Shown here one piece after another: positions 3,467 through 16,827 of a DNA stretch of 64,000 nucleotides. Every line of letters starts with the position of its first letter. The first letter of the stretch is position 1. The stretch is from Aestuariibaculum sp. M13 (GTDB lineage: Bacteria; Bacteroidota; Bacteroidia; Flavobacteriales; Flavobacteriaceae): NCBI RefSeq assembly GCF_024723255.1, contig NZ_JANIAC010000002.1, forward strand, positions 186,001 to 250,000, written 5' to 3'. The position numbers and the translations under genes are program-made. Below the pieces are notes generated by a model. It made no database searches, was not told the DNA's origin, and worked only from the letters and a program-made list of their open reading frames with translations.

Positions 3467-4444
3467 ATGAAAAAATCTATGGAAACTTGTAAAAATTGTG
3501 AAAATGATTTTGAGCAAGGTTATAATTTTTGTCCGCACTGTGGGCAGAAATCAAATGACGAACTCACGGTATCTGTTTTGTTTTATAATACGATAAGCAA
3601 TTATTTTTCGGTTGATGCTCGTTTTTTTAAAAGTTTTATTCCTTTAATGTTTAAGCCGGGGTATTTGGCTAAGCGCTTTGTTGAAGGGAAACGTTTGTTG
3701 TATTTGCATCCAGCACAAATGTATTTGTTTATTTCTGTAGTGTTTTTCTTTTTGTTTTCATTTATTAGTCGAGATCAGGTTAAAACGGTAAATAATGCAT
3801 TAAAAAAAGGTGAAATACCAGTGGTTGTTCACGATAGTTTAAAAACTCAGGTTATCGATTCCTTGAAAAATGTAACTACAGCAGATTATGTTCTTAAAGA
3901 TGATTTTTCTTTCAATCAAAGAACTGTAGATTCCTTGATAGCGATTGATGCTCGGGAAGAGGACATATATACAGCTATGGGAATGGATAGTGATGCCGGA
4001 TTTTTTAAAAGAAGATTGTATACACAAATTTTGAAATTCTACGAGCAACGAAATGGCGGGTCTATTTTACAGGTGTTTTATGATAGTATACCTATGGCTA
4101 TGTTTTTTTTATTACCCATTTTTGCTTTTATTTTAAAATTGCTCTATTACAGGAAAGCTTCATTTTCATATCACCTTGTTTTTAGCTTGTACTTTTTCGC
4201 TTTTATTTTTATGGCTTTTAGTATTTTAGTACTCGTAGATTTGATTTGGAAACCGCAATCATGGCTAAATACTCTGGTGTTAATTTTAATTTTTATTTAT
4301 TTCTATCTTTCTGTTTTAAAGTTTTATAATCAAGGTAAGTTGAAAAGTTTATTTAAGAGTATAGTTGCTGCTTTTTCTTTTATATTAATGGTTATTCCAG
4401 CTGCAGTTGTAGTGATGTTTATGGTCGCCTTTTTCTTTTATTAG
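3467..4444 (+). CDS. DUF3667-type membrane protein with N-terminal zinc ribbon
   Basis: The 325-residue protein opens with a zinc-ribbon-like knuckle, Cys8-x2-Cys11 and Cys22-x2-Cys25 (CKNC ... CPHCGQ). A conserved segment follows with YFSVDARFFKSFIPL, LMFKPGYLAKRFVEGKR and YLHPAQMYLFISVVFFF. One hydrophobic segment lies near residue 95, and at least three more fill the last 130 residues, so the middle part is a loop outside the membrane core. This layout is that of the DUF3667 family, common in Bacteroidota and without a known role. A Met at residue 5 is an alternative start. The gene faces uvrA and shares a two-way terminator with it. Confidence 0.75.
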   Translation: MKKSMETCKNCENDFEQGYNFCPHCGQKSNDELTVSVLFYNTISNYFSVDARFFKSFIPLMFKPGYLAKRFVEGKRLLYLHPAQMYLFISVVFFFLFSFISRDQVKTVNNALKKGEIPVVVHDSLKTQVIDSLKNVTTADYVLKDDFSFNQRTVDSLIAIDAREEDIYTAMGMDSDAGFFKRRLYTQILKFYEQRNGGSILQVFYDSIPMAMFFLLPIFAFILKLLYYRKASFSYHLVFSLYFFAFIFMAFSILVLVDLIWKPQSWLNTLVLILIFIYFYLSVLKFYNQGKLKSLFKSIVAAFSFILMVIPAAVVVMFMVAFFFY

Positions 4445-4450
4445 GACATA

Positions 4451-4502: not shown

Positions 4503-7283
4503 TTAAAGTTTATCTCTAAGATATTTAGCAATAAGTGAGTTTGAATGAATAATGTCTTCCGGTGTGCCGGATGCTACTAAGTTGCCTCCGTATTCACCGC
4601 CATTTGGACCTAAATCGATAATATGATCAGCGGATTTAATTAATTCAATGTTGTGTTCTACAACGATAATGGAGTGTCCTATTTCAATTAGAGCATTAAA
4701 TGATTTAAGTAGCTTTTTAATATCATGAAAGTGCAAACCAGTGGTTGGCTCATCGAAAATAAAAAGTGCTTTTTCTTTACTACTACCTTTTCCTAAAAAC
4801 GATGCCAGTTTTATACGTTGCGCTTCACCACCTGAAAGTGTAGAGGAACTTTGTCCTAAAGTAACATAACCAAGTCCAACATCCTGAAGCGGTTGCAGTT
4901 TGTTCTTTATTTTAGTTTCATCGTTTGCTTCAAAGAATGTGATAGCATCGTCAATGGTTAAGTTTAAAATATCGTCGATGTTTTTATTAGCAAACTGGAC
5001 TTCCAAAACTTCTTTTTTAAAACGCTTTCCTTTACAAGTTTCGCATTCTAAGTGAACATCAGCCATGAATTGCATTTCAATGGTTACTTCACCCTCGCCT
5101 TTACAAGTCTCACAACGTCCGCCATCTACGTTAAAAGAGAAGTGCTTGGCCTGGTAATTTCTAAGCTTACTTAATTTCTGTTTAGAAAATAAAGTTCTAA
5201 TATCATCGTAAGCCTTAATGTAGGTTACCGGATTTGATCTTGAAGAACGCCCAATAGGGTTTTGGTCTACAAATTCGATATGTTTTATGTTGCTGAAGTT
5301 TCCTTCTAGATCAGTAAACTGACCAGCTTTATCGCTAAAATCGGTTAGTTTTTTCTGTAAAGCCGGAAATAAAATCTTTTTAACTAAGGTGCTTTTTCCA
5401 CTTCCGGAAACTCCTGTTACCACCGTAAGCATACCTAAAGGAAAACGCACATCAATATTTTTTAAATTGTTTTCACGAGCCCCTAACACGTCTACATAGT
5501 ATTTTGAAGTACGACGTTTTTCAGGGATTTCAATCTTTAATGTTTCATTTAAATATTGAGCTGTTAGTGATTTCGAATCAAGTAGTTCTGTAAAATTACC
5601 ATATGCTACAACTTCACCTCCAAAAGTCCCTGCTTCAGGCCCGATATCGATAATAGTATCTGCCGCTTTCATGATGTCTTCATCGTGTTCTACTACAATT
5701 ACGGTATTTCCTAAATCACGTAATTGTTTTAAAACCAAAATCAATCGCTCGGTATCTTTAGGATGCAAACCAATACTTGGTTCATCTAAAATATACATCG
5801 ATCCTACAAGACTACTTCCTAAAGAGGTTGCCAGGTTAATACGCTGACTTTCTCCACCCGAAAGTGTGTTAGATTTTCTATTAAGTGTTAAATAATCTAA
5901 ACCTACATTCGATAAAAATGACAAACGGTTATTAATTTCCTTTAAAAGACGATCTGCAATTTTTGTATCGTGTTCGTTTAAAGTCAGGTTTTTAAAGAAT
6001 TCGGCTAATCGGTCTAAGGGCATTTCAACCAAATCTGTTATTGTAGCTCCAGCTATTTTAATGTAATTTGCTTCTATGCGTAAACGTTTGCCATTACAGG
6101 CTTTACATTTGGTTTTTCCGCGGTAACGCGATAACATCACTCTGTTTTGTATTTTATAGGCCTTAGCTTCTAGCTCAGCAAAGAAGGAATTTAAACCTTC
6201 AAAGTGTTTGTTGCCGTCCCAGATAAGTTGTTTCTGCTCGTTACTTAACTGGAAATAGGGTTTATGAATAGGAAAATCAAATTTATGAGAATTATTAACC
6301 AATTGGTCTCTATACCAACTCATGCTTTCGCCTCGCCAAGGAAAGATGGCATTTTCGTAAATTGAAAGTGCCGTATTTGGAATGACTAAATCCTCATCAA
6401 TCCCAATAATATCACCATAACCTTCGCACTTAGGACAAGCTCCATAAGGATTATTAAAACTAAACAGATGCACATTAGGTTCTAAAAAGCTCATGCCATC
6501 CAATTCAAATTTATTAGAAAATGGGCGCAAATTGCTGTCTGATAGCGTTTCAATAAAACATTCTCCTTTTCCTTCAAAAAATGCGGTTTGAATAGAATCT
6601 GCAAGTCTATTAAAAAAATCTTCGTCCTGTTTAATAACGATTCGGTCTACAACCAATAAAACATTGTCCTTTTCAGTAAGATGTTCAGCTTCGTCTATTC
6701 GAATAACACTTCCCTTAACTTTTATTCTGGCATATCCTTGTTGAGCTAAAGTGCTAATTTTATCATTCATCGCTCGACCTTCCTCCAAATGAATAGGAGA
6801 TAGTAACAGTAATTTTTCGCGTTCAGGAAAACTTTTTAAATATTCAAGAACATCGGTAACGGTATCTTTTTTTACTTCTAAGCCAGAAATAGGCGAGTAG
6901 GTCTTACCAATCCTGGCGAATAACAATTTTAAATAGTCGTAAATCTCTGTACTTGTTCCAACAGTTGACCTTGGGTTTGTTGAATTCACCTTTTGTTCAA
7001 TAGCTATAGCTGGCGCTATTCCTTTTATGTAATCGACTTTAGGTTTGTTTAATCGTCCTAAAAACTGACGCGCGTAACTCGATAAACTTTCAACATAACG
7101 TCTTTGTCCTTCAGCATATAATGTATCGAAAGCTAAGCTAGACTTTCCAGAACCCGATAACCCCGTAATAACTACAAGTTTATTGCGCGGTATTACAACA
7201 TCTATATTTTTTAAATTGTGCAGTTTAGCACCTTTTATAATAATATTTTCTTTCGGATTTACTTCAGAAATAGTCGTATTCAT
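4503..7283 (-). CDS. uvrA: Excinuclease ABC subunit A (UvrA)
   Basis: UvrA recognises DNA damage in nucleotide excision repair and loads UvrB. The 926-residue length is normal. Both ABC ATPase modules are complete: Walker [10 protein letters not shown] (Lys47) and GVSGSGKST, signature motifs TLSGGESQR and TLSGGEAQR, and Walker B segments ending in LDEPS and FDEPT. The zinc modules appear as [17 protein letters not shown] in the first half and [19 protein letters not shown] in the second. The gene stands alone on its strand, with a terminator shared with the DUF3667 gene on one side and a promoter-like site on the other. No SOS-type operator is visible, as expected for this phylum. Confidence 0.98.
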
Positions 7284-12018: not shown

Positions 12019-12519
12019 ATGAAGCAAAGAATTTTTATGTATTTGTTTGTGTTTGCCATGTTATTGGTATTGTTTCAGTTTGTTAACTCGAAACGCGTGT
12101 TTGAAGACATGAACAAAAACATTGGTGATTATAAAGAACAATTACAGCAATACAAAGATTCACTGGTAACCATGCAACACGAAATTGCAGATTTATCACA
12201 TTTCAATTTAAATAGAAATGAAGACGCGATTAGCTATTTTGAAAATCAAGGTTACAATACAAGTGAATTAATTCCTATTATAAAAGACGAACTTTACAAG
12301 TTGAATGAAGTAAAAGGAGAACATCCTATGGTACCATATGCCGCAAGTGAAGGTAAACGTATGATGATTAACACTATTAAATTGTTAAATCACAAATGGA
12401 TTATTGCAGATTTCACGGATGGAAAATACTGGGGAGAAATGTTTTTAACCTATTACATTAACGAAGATCAACAAATTGAATTTAATGTTGTTGAGTCGTT
12501 TTTGTATCCATTCGATTAA
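12019..12519 (+). CDS. Membrane-anchored protein with coiled coil, unknown function
   Basis: The 166-residue product has one N-terminal membrane segment (about residues 5-22, FMYLFVFAMLLVLFQFV) followed by a coiled-coil stretch (about 28-65, KNIGDYKEQLQQYKDSLV). A small globular domain follows, with FNLNRNEDAISYFENQGY, EVKGEHPMVPYA, NHKWIIADFTDGKYWGEM and a C-terminal FLYPFD. The domain probably faces the periplasm. Flavobacterial relatives are often simply called hydrolase, for which I see no catalytic motif. It follows the MBL-fold gene by ten bases, suggesting one operon. Confidence 0.75.
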   Translation: MKQRIFMYLFVFAMLLVLFQFVNSKRVFEDMNKNIGDYKEQLQQYKDSLVTMQHEIADLSHFNLNRNEDAISYFENQGYNTSELIPIIKDELYKLNEVKGEHPMVPYAASEGKRMMINTIKLLNHKWIIADFTDGKYWGEMFLTYYINEDQQIEFNVVESFLYPFD

Positions 12520-12593
12520 ATTCTGAATTTTACTCGATAACCGAAATGTCAATATTTTGAAGCTTGCTTCAAAATTAAACTAAGTTTCTTTAT

Positions 12594-12625
12594 AACGCCT
12601 CGTGTACTTGTATCGAGGTGTTTTA
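12594..12625 (+). terminator. Probable terminator after the MBL-fold operon
   Basis: The nine-base arms 12594-12602 (ACGCCTCG core) and 12614-12622 pair with one G-U, followed by TTTTACTTT. A second perfect hairpin, TTTTGAAGC/GCTTCAAAA, lies at 12555-12574 but has almost no loop and no T-run. Confidence 0.6.
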
Positions 12626-12991
12626 CTTTGTTCTATAAGCTATTCCCTTTTGTTTTTTGGTTTCGCCAACATACGAGTATTCGTAAGTGTAAGAGCTGTC
12701 GGTGGTTGTTAAGATTTTTAAATGAATATCTTTTCGTTCGGCCATGTTTTTCGGATTAATGGTTTTAAAAATAACTTCACAATCATTAATCCATCGTAAA
12801 GAAGAAGAATCTACTTTATTGTTGTAGGTTTCCACCTGAAGATCTTCAGTACGTTTAAACTTTGACTTAAATAATTCGCCGTTAATAGTTACTTCGCTAT
12901 AAAATTCTCCGGTTTTGTAATCACTACAATTACGTGTCGTTTCATAACAGCTAAATAAGCTTAAAAAGATTAGAGCGTATAAAAATTTCAT
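12623..12991 (-). CDS. Small lipoprotein of unknown function (flavobacterial family)
   Basis: The 122-residue product has a short lipoprotein signal peptide ending LFSC, lipidated at Cys15. The mature part contains RNCSDYKTGEF, a beta-rich middle and RWINDCEVIFKTINPKNMAE. As I recall, close relatives in Flavobacteriaceae carry the transferred name DNA topoisomerase IV, which the sequence does not support in any way. It is likely an inner-face or periplasmic lipoprotein. It lies 56 bases downstream of the XRE regulator on the same strand and may be cotranscribed with it. Confidence 0.78.
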   Translation of the reverse strand: MKFLYALIFLSLFSCYETTRNCSDYKTGEFYSEVTINGELFKSKFKRTEDLQVETYNNKVDSSSLRWINDCEVIFKTINPKNMAERKDIHLKILTTTDSSYTYEYSYVGETKKQKGIAYRTK

Positions 12992-13047
12992 CTGGACGAA
13001 TTATATGGTTTTAAAATTTCAGGCAAAGGTACTAAACAATCTTAATT

Positions 13048-13467
13048 TTAATTGTGATAGTTCTTAAAAGTACCATCTGAATAAAAAACAACAATACGCT
13101 CTATAGTTTTGTCATTTGCATTTTCAGAAAATATTTTTTCTTCTGGAAGATTTATGGGCGCTCTGGAAATTGGTGGTGTATTTACAACCTGATTAATTTT
13201 TGGAGGAGCTTCAACCGGAGGTGAAGGTGTAATTTCTTTTTTCGCAGGAAAACTTCCTTTGCCATTTAACAACCAATACAATTCTACTTCCGGATAAGCT
13301 GAAAGAATTTTTAGAACAAACTCTAAACTTGGTTTATTTCGCCCGGATAAAATGTGCGATATGCTTGAGCGTTGAACACCTATTTTTTCTGCAAAAGAAG
13401 AGGCAGATTCACCGTAAAAATTGATGACTCTCTCCAGGCGTGTTGTGAATTCTTCTGTGTTTATCAT
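13048..13467 (-). CDS. XRE-family helix-turn-helix transcriptional regulator
   Basis: The 139-residue protein has an N-terminal HTH_3 domain at about residues 5-68 (RLERVINFYGESASSFAEKIGVQRSSISHILSGRNKPS in the full sequence). A Pro-rich linker follows (PSPPVEAPPKI ... PPISRAPINLPEE), and the short C-terminal end is IERIVVFYSDGTFKNYHN. That end is common in flavobacterial regulators of this kind and may be a dimerisation or ligand tail. It is divergent from the M14 peptidase gene across 335 bases that carry seven copies of a palindromic ACAAWTGT site, strongly suggesting that it binds there and controls both genes. Effector unknown. Confidence 0.88.
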   Translation of the reverse strand: MINTEEFTTRLERVINFYGESASSFAEKIGVQRSSISHILSGRNKPSLEFVLKILSAYPEVELYWLLNGKGSFPAKKEITPSPPVEAPPKINQVVNTPPISRAPINLPEEKIFSENANDKTIERIVVFYSDGTFKNYHN

Positions 13468-13474
13468 TGTAATC

Positions 13475-13538
13475 GTTTACAAATGTTTACCATGTCACAA
13501 ATGTAACAAAAATATATTTACAGTATACAAATGTATAC
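13475..13538 (-). promoter_or_regulatory. Operator-like site cluster A, next to the XRE gene start
   Basis: Three copies of a palindrome-like motif, consensus GTTTACAAATGTAWAC, lie at 13475-13490, 13494-13507 and 13523-13538; the last, GTATACAAATGTATAC, is symmetric except for the central base pair. On the minus strand copies two and three contain TACATTTG, a TAnnTTTG -7 element, so the operators overlap possible promoters of the regulator. Centres are 18 and 30 bases apart. Confidence 0.6.
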
Positions 13539-13693
13539 AAAAAACAAGTAAAAAATGTAAATTTATATAAAGCTTTACTTTAATGTAATATCATTAAATA
13601 ACTGAAATATAATATTTTAAATATATATTGCTGTTTGTCGATAAACAACTAAGTTATTATGGAGATTAAAGGGTTATCCGACGAAACACCAGT

Positions 13694-13791
13694 GTTTACA
13701 AATGTATACAACTAATTTTAAATTAATGTTTACAATTGTAAATCACCGATTGTTGACAATTGTAACTTTTTAAATTCTTACATTTGTCAAC
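13694..13791 (+). promoter_or_regulatory. Operator-like site cluster B, next to the M14 peptidase gene start
   Basis: Four further copies lie at 13694-13709, 13728-13743, 13752-13766 and, inverted, 13777-13791. TTTACAATTGTAAA at 13729-13742 is a perfect 14-base palindrome. The last copy holds TACATTTG (13779-13786), a full -7 promoter match 16 bases before the peptidase ATG, so binding there should block RNA polymerase. Centres are 34, 24 and 24 bases apart. Between clusters A and B (13539-13693) I see only AT-rich sequence. Confidence 0.6.
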
Positions 13792-13802
13792 AAATTATTA
13801 TC

Positions 13803-14936
13803 ATGCAATTAGAGACCATAAAATCACTTTACTTAAACAACAAAGAGTCGCGTTTAAGTCATCGATATATAACCAACAATCACATTAAACCTGTTCTAGA
13901 TTCTTTAAACAACCAATTAAATATTGAGTGTATTGGGCAATCTGTTTTAAAAGACGATATATATGCATTTAAAATTGGTAAAGGTGATAAACGGATTCTT
14001 ATGTGGTCGCAAATGCACGGTAACGAATCGACAACAACTAAGGCTATTTTTGATCTTACAAACACCTTATTAAGCAACGATGCTTCTGTAAAACACATTT
14101 TAGAAGCTTGTACTTTGTATGTTATTCCAATTTTAAATCCGGATGGCGCTAAGGCTTATACTCGAATAAATGCCAATGAAGTGGATTTAAACAGGGATGC
14201 TCAAAATTTAACTCAGCCTGAAAGTTTGGTTCTGAAAGCAGCTTTCGAAGCTTTTAAACCACATTATTGTTATAATCTACATGGTCAGCGTACTATTTTT
14301 AGTGCTGGGAGAGCTGAAAAATCGGCTACAATATCATTCTTGTCACCAGCGCAGGACCAGGAATGTACTATTACGCCTAACAGAAAGGTGGCTATGGAGA
14401 TTATAAGTGTAATGAATGAGGCTCTGCAAAAGGAGATACCAGGGCAGGTTGGGGTGTATGATGATGCCTTTAACTTAAATTGTGTAGGAGATACGTTTCA
14501 AAGTAAAAATGTGCCAACCATTTTATTTGAAGCAGGTCATTTTCATGATGATTACGGAAGGGAAAAGACACGAGAGCTTATTTATATATCTTACATCACT
14601 TCCTTTGATTATATAGCTAAAAACAACGTTTCAGGGGGTAATTATGAAGCTTATTTAGAAATTCCTGAAAACGAAAAACTATTTTTAGATGTTATTATTA
14701 GAAATGCATCTATTGGTGATATTGGCATTATGTTTCAGGAGACATTGGTTGATGATGAAGTTGTTTTTATTCCTAAAGTTGATAAAATCGAGGATTTGAA
14801 AGAATTTTATGCACATAAAACGATTCAGGCCAATGGTTTAGAAGTGTTAAATGAATCAGGGAATCCTATTAAGATAGGTGACGAAAACGTTTTCGTGATT
14901 ATGAATAATGAAAAAATCTCATTAATTTCAAAATAA
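13803..14936 (+). CDS. M14-family zinc carboxypeptidase-like protein
   Basis: The 377-residue protein has the M14 metallopeptidase core in its first 260 residues. The zinc ligands are His72 and Glu75 in MHGNE and His160 in NLHGQ, the substrate-binding Asn130-Arg131 lies in VDLNRD, and the probable catalytic Glu is in ILFEAGHFHDD. The last 110 residues form a smaller extra domain. There is no signal peptide, so it acts in the cytoplasm, unlike digestive carboxypeptidases. The family also includes deacylases such as succinylglutamate desuccinylase and peptidoglycan-peptide carboxypeptidases, so the substrate is open. The divergent XRE regulator and the operator sites upstream suggest tightly regulated expression; an Lrp/AsnC regulator follows 70 bases later. 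Confidence 0.85.
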   Translation: MQLETIKSLYLNNKESRLSHRYITNNHIKPVLDSLNNQLNIECIGQSVLKDDIYAFKIGKGDKRILMWSQMHGNESTTTKAIFDLTNTLLSNDASVKHILEACTLYVIPILNPDGAKAYTRINANEVDLNRDAQNLTQPESLVLKAAFEAFKPHYCYNLHGQRTIFSAGRAEKSATISFLSPAQDQECTITPNRKVAMEIISVMNEALQKEIPGQVGVYDDAFNLNCVGDTFQSKNVPTILFEAGHFHDDYGREKTRELIYISYITSFDYIAKNNVSGGNYEAYLEIPENEKLFLDVIIRNASIGDIGIMFQETLVDDEVVFIPKVDKIEDLKEFYAHKTIQANGLEVLNESGNPIKIGDENVFVIMNNEKISLISK

Positions 14937-14947
14937 AGCCTATTATT

Positions 14948-14982
14948 AATGTATTATTTTTAAAGAAAATGTACTATTTTTG
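14948..14982 (+). promoter_or_regulatory. Tandem 14-base repeat with -7 element upstream of the Lrp-type gene
   Basis: AATGTATTATTTTT (14948-14961) and AATGTACTATTTTT (14968-14981) are direct repeats 20 bases apart, i.e. about two helical turns. The second ends in TATTTTTG (14975-14982), a TAnnTTTG match 24 bases before the ATG. This could be a tandem promoter or an autoregulatory site for the Lrp-type protein. Confidence 0.4.
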
Positions 14983-15006
14983 CTTTATACTTAAGAATAA
15001 TTAATT

Positions 15007-15486
15007 ATGGGGAAAATTAAATTAGACGAGATTGATCACCAAATCCTTGATATGTTAATCGATAACACTAGGATTCCGTTTACAGACATTGCAAAAAAAT
15101 TACTAATATCGGCAGGTACTGTGCACGTAAGAGTGAAGAAAATGGAAGAACATGGTATTATTAAAGGTTCTTCTTTAATGTTAGATTATAAAAAATTAGG
15201 ATATTCTTTCATAGCATACGTAGGAGTATTTTTAAATAAAACTTCGGAAACTAAATTTGTTTTAGAAAGAATTAATCAGATTCCTTACGTTACCGTTGCG
15301 CATATTACAACAGGTAAATTTAATGTTTTCTGTAAGATTCGTGCAAAAAGTACAGAACACGCTAAGGAAGTAATCTTTATGCTGGATGATATTGAAGGTG
15401 TTTACAGAACAGAAACTATGATATCGTTAGAAGAGAGTATCAATGATAAAAAACGATTAATGCATACTATTTTCAATGAAATGTAA
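15007..15486 (+). CDS. Lrp/AsnC-family transcriptional regulator
   Basis: The 159-residue length is standard. The N-terminal winged helix-turn-helix spans about residues 5-58 (LDEIDHQILDMLIDNTRIPFTDIAKKLLISAGTVHVRVKKMEE overall). The C-terminal RAM domain from about 70 binds small effectors, usually amino acids, and drives oligomerisation (FIAYVGVFL, IPYVTVAHITTGKFNVFCKI, GVYRTETMISLEES). No effector can be predicted. The upstream M14 gene is on the same strand, but a direct repeat with its own -7 element precedes this gene, so it is probably transcribed separately. Confidence 0.92.
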   Translation: MGKIKLDEIDHQILDMLIDNTRIPFTDIAKKLLISAGTVHVRVKKMEEHGIIKGSSLMLDYKKLGYSFIAYVGVFLNKTSETKFVLERINQIPYVTVAHITTGKFNVFCKIRAKSTEHAKEVIFMLDDIEGVYRTETMISLEESINDKKRLMHTIFNEM

Positions 15487-15506
15487 GCTTAATCTCTATG
15501 CATAAG

Positions 15507-15540
15507 AAAAACGCTGATTTATATAATCAGCGTTTTTTTT
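15507..15540. terminator. Intrinsic terminator after the Lrp-type gene
   Basis: The arms AAAAACGCTGATT and AATCAGCGTTTTT pair over 12-13 bases with a TATAT loop and a long T-run. The converging dehydrogenase gene ends four bases beyond it, so it may serve both. Confidence 0.88.
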
Positions 15541-15543
15541 GTT

Positions 15544-16827
15544 TTATAGCCTTCCGTTAACAGGTTCTTTTAAAAAACCTTTTACGTCGTATAGAACGCT
15601 ATTTGGTTTTAAAAGATTCTTTATAGTTATGTTTAGAAATTCGCTGTGAGAAACAGCTAATACTACAGCGTCAAATGTGTTATCTGGTAATTCTGTAATT
15701 GTTTTAAGGTTGTATTCGTAAAATACTTCGTCTGGTTCGGCCCAAGGGTCGTAAATCGTTACTTCTGTACCGTAACTTTGTAATTGATTAATTACATCTA
15801 CAACTTTGGTATTTCTAACATCAGGGCAATTTTCTTTAAATGTGATGCCGAGGATTAAAATTTTAGCATCCTTGATTCGAATATCTTTTTGCGCCATAAG
15901 TTTAATAACCTCAGAAGCCACATAATGCCCCATGCTGTCATTCACGCGACGTCCGGCTAAGATGATTTCCGGGTGATAACCTATTTCGATAGCTTTTTGA
16001 GCTAAATAATAAGGATCAACACCTATGCAGTGTCCTCCAACTAAGCCAGGTTTAAAAGGAAGAAAGTTCCATTTGGTTCCGGCAGCTTCTAAAACGGCTT
16101 GTGTGTCAATATTCATTAGGTTGAAAATCTTTGCTAACTCATTCACAAAAGCAATATTAATATCGCGTTGTGAGTTTTCAATAACTTTTGCAGCTTCAGC
16201 AACTTTTATAGATGGGGCTAAATGAGTGCCTGCAGAAATAACACTAGCGTATAATTGGTCTACTTTTTTACCAATTTCTGGGGTGGAGCCAGAAGTGACC
16301 TTTAGAATTTTGTCTACCGTATGCAATTTATCTCCTGGGTTAATACGCTCCGGAGAATAACCTGCAAAAAAGTCTTTGTTGAATTTTAATCCGCTTATAT
16401 TTTCTAAAACAGGGATGCATTCATCTTCTGTTACTCCCGGGTAAACTGTGGACTCGTAAATAACAATATCGCCTTGTTTTAAAACTTTAGCAATCGATTC
16501 AGTGGATTTATAAAGAGGTGTTAAATCAGGTTTATTGTTTTTGTCAATAGGAGTAGGGACAGTTACAATGTAATAATTACATTCTTTAATGTCTTCTAAT
16601 TGAGAAGAACAAAAAAGACCATTAGACATGCTTTCTGTTGAAGATTTTAAAACCGCTTTCAGTTCATCTTCTTCAACTTCTAGTGTTATGTCATTGCCTT
16701 TGTTTAATTCTTCTATGCGTTTTTGACTGATATCAAAACCTATAACGGGGTATTTTGTAGCAAATAATCTTGCGAGGGGTAAGCCAACATAGCCTAAGCC
16801 TACAATAGCAATTTTAATATCCTTCAT
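15544..16827 (-). CDS. Nucleotide-sugar dehydrogenase, UDP-GalNAc/GlcNAc 6-dehydrogenase type (WbpO/TviB-like)
   Basis: A 427-residue member of the UDP-glucose/GDP-mannose dehydrogenase family. It has the N-terminal NAD-binding GLGYVGLP, the conserved YESTVYPG and FAGYSPERINPGD, the catalytic Cys in GGHCIGVDPYYLA at about residue 265, and the C-terminal NAD domain with LGITFKENCPDVRNTKV. This subgroup oxidises C6 of UDP-N-acetylhexosamines to give uronic acids for capsule or O-antigen. The next gene is a WbpP/TviC-type C4-epimerase, and the same pair makes UDP-GalNAcA in Vi-antigen and O6-antigen synthesis. The genes are 15 bases apart and clearly one operon. A UDP-glucose dehydrogenase role is less likely given the partner. 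Confidence 0.9.
   Translation of the reverse strand: MKDIKIAIVGLGYVGLPLARLFATKYPVIGFDISQKRIEELNKGNDITLEVEEDELKAVLKSSTESMSNGLFCSSQLEDIKECNYYIVTVPTPIDKNNKPDLTPLYKSTESIAKVLKQGDIVIYESTVYPGVTEDECIPVLENISGLKFNKDFFAGYSPERINPGDKLHTVDKILKVTSGSTPEIGKKVDQLYASVISAGTHLAPSIKVAEAAKVIENSQRDINIAFVNELAKIFNLMNIDTQAVLEAAGTKWNFLPFKPGLVGGHCIGVDPYYLAQKAIEIGYHPEIILAGRRVNDSMGHYVASEVIKLMAQKDIRIKDAKILILGITFKENCPDVRNTKVVDVINQLQSYGTEVTIYDPWAEPDEVFYEYNLKTITELPDNTFDAVVLAVSHSEFLNITIKNLLKPNSVLYDVKGFLKEPVNGRL

Follow-up and report, generated by a model that had tools for sequence, protein, structure and literature searches.

Locus and palindromes

At positions 13048–13467 of the window, the 64-kb stretch of DNA analyzed here, the minus strand encodes a 139-residue XRE/HTH_3 regulator (Pfam HTH_3), and divergently from it, at 13803–14936 on the plus strand, lies the gene for a 377-residue M14 zinc carboxypeptidase-like protein (Pfam PF00246). 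The divergent gap between the two measures 335 bp; these coordinates, strands, lengths, and the gap itself are as a first-pass annotation of the window had given them. On the 3′ side of the regulator gene, a small gene on the minus strand (12623–12991) is predicted to encode a lipoprotein, a call made by eye from its N-terminus, and has no family match in Pfam or NCBIfam. In 74 of the 79 loci with enough sequence, such a gene shares the strand of the regulator and lies less than 600 bp downstream of it, and the pair is possibly co-transcribed. The lipoprotein gene still adjoins the peptidase in 8 of 14 loci that have no regulator. Downstream of the peptidase, at 15007–15486, sits an Lrp/AsnC-family regulator of very high conservation, which is 97–98% identical in loci L075–L077 and ~84–96% identical in the remaining loci among the matches listed.

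The first-pass annotation had claimed seven ACAAWTGT palindromes at 13475–13791, and seven are present, starting at 13475, 13493, 13523, 13694, 13728, 13752, and 13776, six with the exact core on the plus strand and the seventh on the minus strand. Against the 16-mer GTWTACAAWTGTAWAC, on the better strand and in site order, they show 1, 5, 0, 0, 1, 3, and 3 mismatches; the outer letters of the 16-mer are weaker, at 0–5 mismatches, than the title of that annotation suggests. An eighth copy, absent from it, lies at 13459–13474 over the regulator start codon (13465–13467), and we designate this putative site R0. On the regulator side follow an extra putative site at 13475–13490 (1 mismatch); putative site R1 at 13493–13508, centered 33 bp upstream of the HTH gene; and a further extra putative site at 13523–13538 (0 mismatches). 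Four putative sites lie on the peptidase side: 13694–13709 and 13728–13743, which a 34-24 spacing pattern equates with canonical sites P3 and P2, respectively; 13752–13767, 24 bp from either neighbor; and the promoter-proximal site, 13776–13791. The second of these contains the perfect 14-base palindrome noted previously, TTTACAATTGTAAA at 13729–13742. On the plus strand of the 64-kb window there are nine exact ACAAWTGT cores, six of them within the gap, and three copies of TACAAWTGTA, all within the gap.

A genome-wide search, proposed in the first-pass annotation as a check on confinement, gave a result that depends on the length of the motif. With no more than one mismatch allowed, the 4.16-Mb genome has the 16-mer in this gap alone, whereas the 10-mer TACAAWTGTA is also found elsewhere (genome-wide, 51 strand-counted matches, against 30 for the reversed control). 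Allowing up to three mismatches yields 311/317 matches to the 16-mer genome-wide; the reversed control gives 272/244, and any excess outside the gap is therefore small. In 60 relatives, a limit of one mismatch gave 52 distinct places, of which 38 adjoin the regulator by our own count of the list; the others are dispersed and amount to 17 strand-counted matches, where the reversed control has 39. Because most matches in relatives adjoin the regulator and the rest fall below the control, we treat the operators as local. No 16-mer match at this threshold was found in 27 of the 60 relatives, including genomes that have the regulator. A regulon elsewhere was rejected on searches of the window's own genome to three mismatches and of the 60 relatives to one. 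An RNA leader or riboswitch was likewise rejected: in 12500–15600 no Rfam model exceeded its gathering score, and the one weak match in the gap is to a microRNA model (E 0.21).

Conservation of the gap layout

A scan of the collection retained the best 80 loci, 79 of which have a divergent peptidase; together with the window they provide 80 gaps, referred to below as the best-80-locus set. Every one of these gaps holds at least one ACAAWTGT, and the mean is 3.18 per gap compared with 0.155 in dinucleotide shuffles. Homologous gaps in relatives thus retain the sites; given also the confinement of the 16-mer at high stringency, neither of the two outcomes that the first-pass annotation named as refuting its proposal was seen. 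Not only the sites but also their positions recur in this set. R0 lies over the start codon in 68/80 gaps and R1 ~34 bp upstream of the regulator in 70/80, while on the other side P1 lies ~20 bp upstream of the peptidase in 78/80, P2 ~44 bp upstream in 79/80, and P3 near 79 bp upstream in 50/80. Wherever both members of a pair are found, the spacing is nearly invariant: 24 bp for P1–P2 (78/78), 34 or 35 bp for P2–P3 (50/50), and 33–37 bp for R0–R1 (66/66). The P1–P2 and P2–P3 spacings differ by one helical turn.

Adding 120 further regions brought the total to 231 divergent loci and 202 unique gaps. At least two sites are scored in all 202 and four to six in 172 of them, so the data do not support treating the seven sites of the window, originally singled out as unusually elaborate, as special. 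The regulator itself is widespread: of 395 evenly sampled family genomes, all at least 90% complete, 369 have a match to it at E 1e-15 or better. In other families of the order the gaps range from 231 to 1572 bp and are mostly without this geometry. For instance, in L317–L319, from one such family (f5), the divergent gap is 808–970 bp long and its weak sites are dispersed, with no constant arrangement. L200, from another (f2), still shows sites spaced 33-24 bp next to the peptidase.

Probable operators in coding DNA and over both promoters

The position of R0 over the start codon is reflected in codon choice. Within the best-80-locus set, 75 regulator genes have isoleucine at codon 2, 73 of them as ATA, and the asparagine at codon 3 is AAC in 78 of 80, compared with 31% ATA and 25% AAC elsewhere in the two genes. 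Other conserved isoleucine and asparagine positions are unbiased (ATA 10–35%, AAC 9–38%). The commonest start context, found in 40 of the 80, is GTTTACAATGATAAAC, a near-palindrome enclosing the ATG. Binomial p values for the codon bias are not taken literally because the species are related; the pattern itself suggests that operator sequence reaches into regulator coding DNA.

Both promoters appear to lie beneath operators. The flavobacterial −7 box, TAnnTTTG, spans −12 to −5 (PMC9723704). In the best-80-locus set, this box is found inside P1, directed toward the peptidase, in 79/80 gaps; 10–32 bp upstream of the M14 gene in 79/80; and inside R1, directed toward the regulator, in 65/80. By the numbering in that source, transcription is predicted to start at 13791 for the M14 gene and at 13493 for the HTH gene. 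The initial claim that several copies in the window contain TACATTTG in the orientation of the adjacent gene stands for the promoter-proximal copy (13779–13786, toward M14) and for R1 (13505–13498, toward HTH), and one lies inside the 13523 copy; it does not stand for the 13694 copy, where the element points away from M14, or for the 13475, 13728, and 13752 copies, which lack it. A bound regulator would, as was first proposed, cover both −7 boxes, and from this overlap we infer repression rather than activation.

Many divergently encoded regulators activate their neighbor and repress themselves. The divergent layout seen here would suit such a scheme, with or without a loop, as would the placement of P2 and P3, which lie on the upstream side of the M14 −7 box in a position open to activators. 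However, P1 holds the −7 box in 79/80 gaps of the best-80-locus set and, when occupied, would block RNA polymerase; moreover, all 14 peptidase loci that lack the regulator (described below) also lack a site within two mismatches, and expression without the regulator is presumably possible there. Activation of the peptidase coupled to self-repression therefore seems unlikely to us, though it deserves some weight.

The sites follow the regulator

Loci that have lost one or other gene allow the sites to be assigned to a partner. The regulator-less sample was assembled from six loci plus 12 M14 loci (L324–L335), the latter being those with M14 among 14 genomes taken from the 20 family genomes listed without a regulator match. 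Four of these 18 were left out: L332 and L334, for which no DNA upstream was available; L331, which a contig end truncates and which carries sites; and L333, where a regulator as well as sites turned up. Paralog matches L336–L343 were also excluded. None of the 14 remaining peptidase loci, each with 450 bp upstream, has a site within two mismatches, and weaker scoring matches occur in four. Where the regulator is present and the peptidase absent, 7 of 8 loci retain a pair of sites, proximal and distal, separated by 192, 191, 179, 202 (with a weak distal site), 191, 192, and 177 bp, and so by 179 or 191–192 bp in five of the seven; L187, also regulator-only, shows several weak sites and no clear pair. 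In L191 (genome G025, 3784–4448), no peptidase gene separates the regulator from the Lrp gene, and palindromes of the peptidase promoter side remain, some with extra mismatches.

These loci indicate that the sites follow the regulator, not the peptidase. Because peptidase-less genomes retain the two-site regulator region (7/8), autoregulation looks like the core function, and the far site kept in regulator-only genomes suggests that a loop would serve autoregulation first. At the level of sequence, the original proposal that the XRE regulator has operators of its own, probably bound cooperatively, is supported, and its corollary, that the peptidase is what needs elaborate control, is not. The same loci bear on whether the sites might belong to a global regulator, or be promoter repeats unrelated to the XRE protein. 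In favor of this, TACATTTG fits the flavobacterial −7 box TAnnTTTG (PMC9723704); yet the 16-mer at one mismatch or fewer is found in this gap only, and the sites are lost with the regulator and retained when the peptidase alone is absent, which leaves a global or unrelated origin very improbable.

Helical phasing between the clusters

The distance between the two clusters, taken from R1 to P2, could be measured in 172 of the 202 unique gaps, 30 being unmeasurable. It falls at 202–204 bp in 8 gaps, 211–215 bp in 75, 221–225 bp in 76, and 233–235 bp in 8, such that 167 of the 172 lie at ~203, 213, 223, or 234 bp; the five out-of-phase distances are one each at 190, 209, 230, 239, and 258 bp. Adjacent R–P spacings peak at 178–179 and 188–189 bp, equal to 17 and 18 turns of 10.5 bp. 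The integral-turn operator spacing that characterizes a Gal-type loop is thus found in these gaps.

On a tree of the M14 proteins, which accommodates 170 of the 172, the distance class changes a minimum of 28 times, with FastTree (29) and IQ-TREE quick (28) in agreement. Of the 28 reconstructed changes, 23 depart by no more than 1.5 bp from whole multiples of 10.5 bp (binomial p 6e-9; V-test p 8e-8), a count that comes from a single tree reconstruction and leaves aside drift within a class, 1–3 bp of which is concealed by pooling neighboring lengths. No 10.5-bp periodicity is seen in the neighboring HTH–lipoprotein intergenic length (R 0.08, n 45). The M14–LRP spacing (61–79 bp, mostly 70–75) was too narrow to be used as a phasing control.

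Relatedness might mimic such a pattern if the length classes had been inherited from a few ancestors rather than selected for helical phase; indeed, 151 of the 172 gaps belong to the ~213 and ~223 classes, and these two classes form groups on the tree. Set against this are the number of class changes that the tree requires (28 or more, 23 of which are whole turns), the stepping of both arms of the spacer by a turn (described below), and the unphased HTH–lipoprotein length, and we consider inheritance of the classes improbable.

How the distance is assigned matters for the genus of the window. A first rule, which took the last 24-bp pair, put this genus out of phase. A second rule, which took the 34–36 pair with its 24-bp partner where present, altered 6 of 119 shared gaps, moving five into phase and one, L132, out (222 to 258). 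The genus of the window measures 235 bp, in phase, when aligned by the 34-24 pattern, and 259 bp, out of phase, by the promoter-proximal 24-bp pair; it is the weakest evidence for phasing, because it is in phase only under the 34-24 alignment.

An IHF-type element in mid-spacer

Between the clusters, at 13595–13607 on the minus strand, lies an element that matches 8 of the 9 specified positions of WATCARNNNNTTR, the IHF consensus. A match of at least 8/9 to this consensus occurs at R1 +78 to +89 in 132 of 167 gaps, compared with 62 of 1002 control windows, and 35 of the 167 have no good match. When matches of at least 7/9 are considered, 147 of 157 lie at an offset of 83 or 84. The element divides the spacer into two arms, which could be measured in the 125 gaps where it is unambiguous. 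The R-side arm, which runs to R1, is 82–85 bp in 110 gaps, 93–94 bp in four (three of them from the genus of the window), and 70–71 bp in two, with nine out of step. The P-side arm, which runs to P2, is 119–120 bp in four, 128–131 bp in 46, 139–141 bp in 64, and 150 bp in one, with 10 out of step. From these length classes, each arm steps by a turn. A match of at least 8/9 in the same orientation also lies between both sites in 6 of the 7 peptidase-less loci, and reaches 9/9 in two, the chance level for an 8/9 match being ~6% of control windows. The genome carries two HU/IHF-family genes. The middle element is a candidate binding site for IHF or HU.

These data also weigh on an alternative arrangement, in which two independent operator groups each shut their own promoter by local cooperativity and no loop forms. 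Either cluster alone covers a −7 box, and cooperativity of a local kind might account for the constant 24- and 35-bp spacings inside the clusters. Such an arrangement nevertheless leaves unexplained the whole-turn moves of cluster distance on the tree, the constant phase of the IHF-type element between the clusters, and the distal site that persists ~180–190 bp away in peptidase-less genomes. We regard it as unlikely.

The regulator and peptidase proteins

The regulator belongs to the XRE/HTH_3 family, scoring 36.3 bits against the Pfam HTH_3 cut-off of 23. In its AlphaFold model, residues 1–70 have a pLDDT of 85–92 by block, residues 83–111 fall below 50, and a hairpin stands at ~80. The model suggests an N-terminal HTH, a disordered linker, and a C-terminal beta-hairpin; this short hairpin is a candidate contact for regulator oligomerization. 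The top Foldseek matches are C.BclI, C.AhdI, HigA, SinR, and 434 repressor, none with an E-value below 0.001. Several other identities were considered and rejected. A LexA/CI-type protein with an S24 domain fits neither the Pfam scan, which at E 0.001 gives only HTH families, nor the model, which after residue 70 contains only the linker and hairpin. For a HigA antitoxin, the TIGR02607 score is 20.1 bits against a cut-off of 47.7, and for a toxin–antitoxin pair more generally, the divergent neighbor is an M14 protein and the downstream neighbor has no Pfam or NCBIfam match. Membership of the GalR/LacI family was set aside, the regulator being an XRE/HTH_3 protein.

The M14 protein scores 56.1 bits against the PF00246 cut-off of 21.6, and its model (pLDDT 86.3) has a fold resembling M14 carboxypeptidase structures. 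M14 metallocarboxypeptidases are recognized by the zinc ligands of an HxxE motif, a second histidine, a catalytic glutamate, and an NR pair. Residues H72, E75, N130, R131, H160, and E243 are invariant in 31/31 sequences and, on these general residue roles, supply that signature. Identity as the murein tripeptide amidase MpaA was rejected (NF007897, 26.1 bits against a cut-off of 157). In L198 an M14 homolog (4579–5721) directly follows a DNA ligase gene, in a genome with a contig of 344,793 bases (0.34 Mb); its retention there hints at an important cellular role. A lysine/DapE-like role for the M14 protein, prompted by its presence in very small genomes, found no support in a literature search and was set aside. 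Several family genomes carry a second, longer M14 homolog, with open frames of 469–523 residues (L336–L343).

A proposed looped, autoregulated repressor

The simplest account of these patterns, and the reading that we favor with a probability of about 0.72, is of an autoregulated XRE repressor that would bind cooperatively at both clusters and close an HU/IHF-bent loop covering both −7 boxes. The palindromes would be operators of the adjacent XRE regulator, bound by dimers. On the regulator side, R0 would occupy the start codon and R1 the HTH −7 box; on the peptidase side would stand P3, P2, and P1, the last over the M14 −7 box. Contacts between regulators would keep the clusters in register across a spacer of ~180–190 bp, in the middle of which an HU/IHF-family protein would bend the DNA. 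The closed loop would repress regulator and peptidase alike, and its loss in response to a signal would free both genes. That the regulator binds, oligomerizes, loops the DNA, and represses rather than activates, and that the bending protein is of the HU/IHF family, are all deductions from sequence patterns. The cluster distance, helical spacing, IHF-type middle element, and start-codon operator go beyond the first-pass annotation and, as read from the DNA, are new here.

In a broader form, to which we give somewhat better than an even chance, the regulator would represent an undescribed, family-wide class of small XRE proteins that control themselves through an IHF-shaped loop, with an operator at the start codon and the peptidase promoter as the far anchor; peptidase-less genomes would keep the loop for autoregulation alone. 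A literature search, with most subscription journals outside its reach, found no description of this unit or of looping repressors in this group. Should the model hold, the gaps amount to a natural and much-replicated helical-phasing experiment, comprising at least 28 changes of spacer length class, 23 of them by whole turns. The family would gain a dedicated loop regulator, found in 369/395 sampled genomes, and a simple reporter system would be at hand for testing looping.

Comparison with known systems

Short autoregulating XRE proteins are well represented by the C proteins of restriction–modification systems, SinR, and HigA. These include the closest folds to the regulator by Foldseek, at weak E-values. 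Unlike in those systems, no restriction, toxin, or SinI partner adjoins the regulator, and the array is long-range and phased.

The LexA-like SOS repressors of Bacteroidetes offer a likeness at the level of DNA. In Elizabethkingia anophelis, such a repressor binds TTAC-AAATT-GTAA (PMC8565304). Palindromic self-operators with similar half-sites would be common to both, but the center here has four bases (TTAC-AAWT-GTAA) rather than five. No S24 domain was found in the regulator, in contrast to those repressors, and the genes beside it encode a peptidase and a lipoprotein instead of SOS functions.

Lambda CI has an XRE-like DNA-binding domain, and its neighboring operators lie ~24 bp apart. Both features resemble the present system, as does the grouping of sites into clusters: in phage lambda, a CI octamer bridges the OR and OL site clusters (PMC8053113). 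The regulator described here differs in that no S24 C-terminal domain was found in it, in acting, on our reading, at short range within one divergent gap, and in being encoded by a conserved chromosomal gene rather than a phage.

GalR, the namesake of the Gal repressosome, is a LacI-family protein. In the Escherichia coli Gal repressosome, two operators 113 bp, or 11 turns, apart close a loop around the promoters, and HU binds at the loop apex (PMC4693257). Here, by contrast, the protein is of the XRE type, clusters of two to four sites replace single operators, the promoters are divergent, the spacer is ~180–190 bp, the middle element is an IHF-type sequence, and the operator appears to reach regulator coding DNA. 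What the two systems would share is a pair of operator groups set integral turns apart and, on our reading, a loop between them; in the present gaps an IHF-type sequence at a fixed offset marks a candidate place for a bend.
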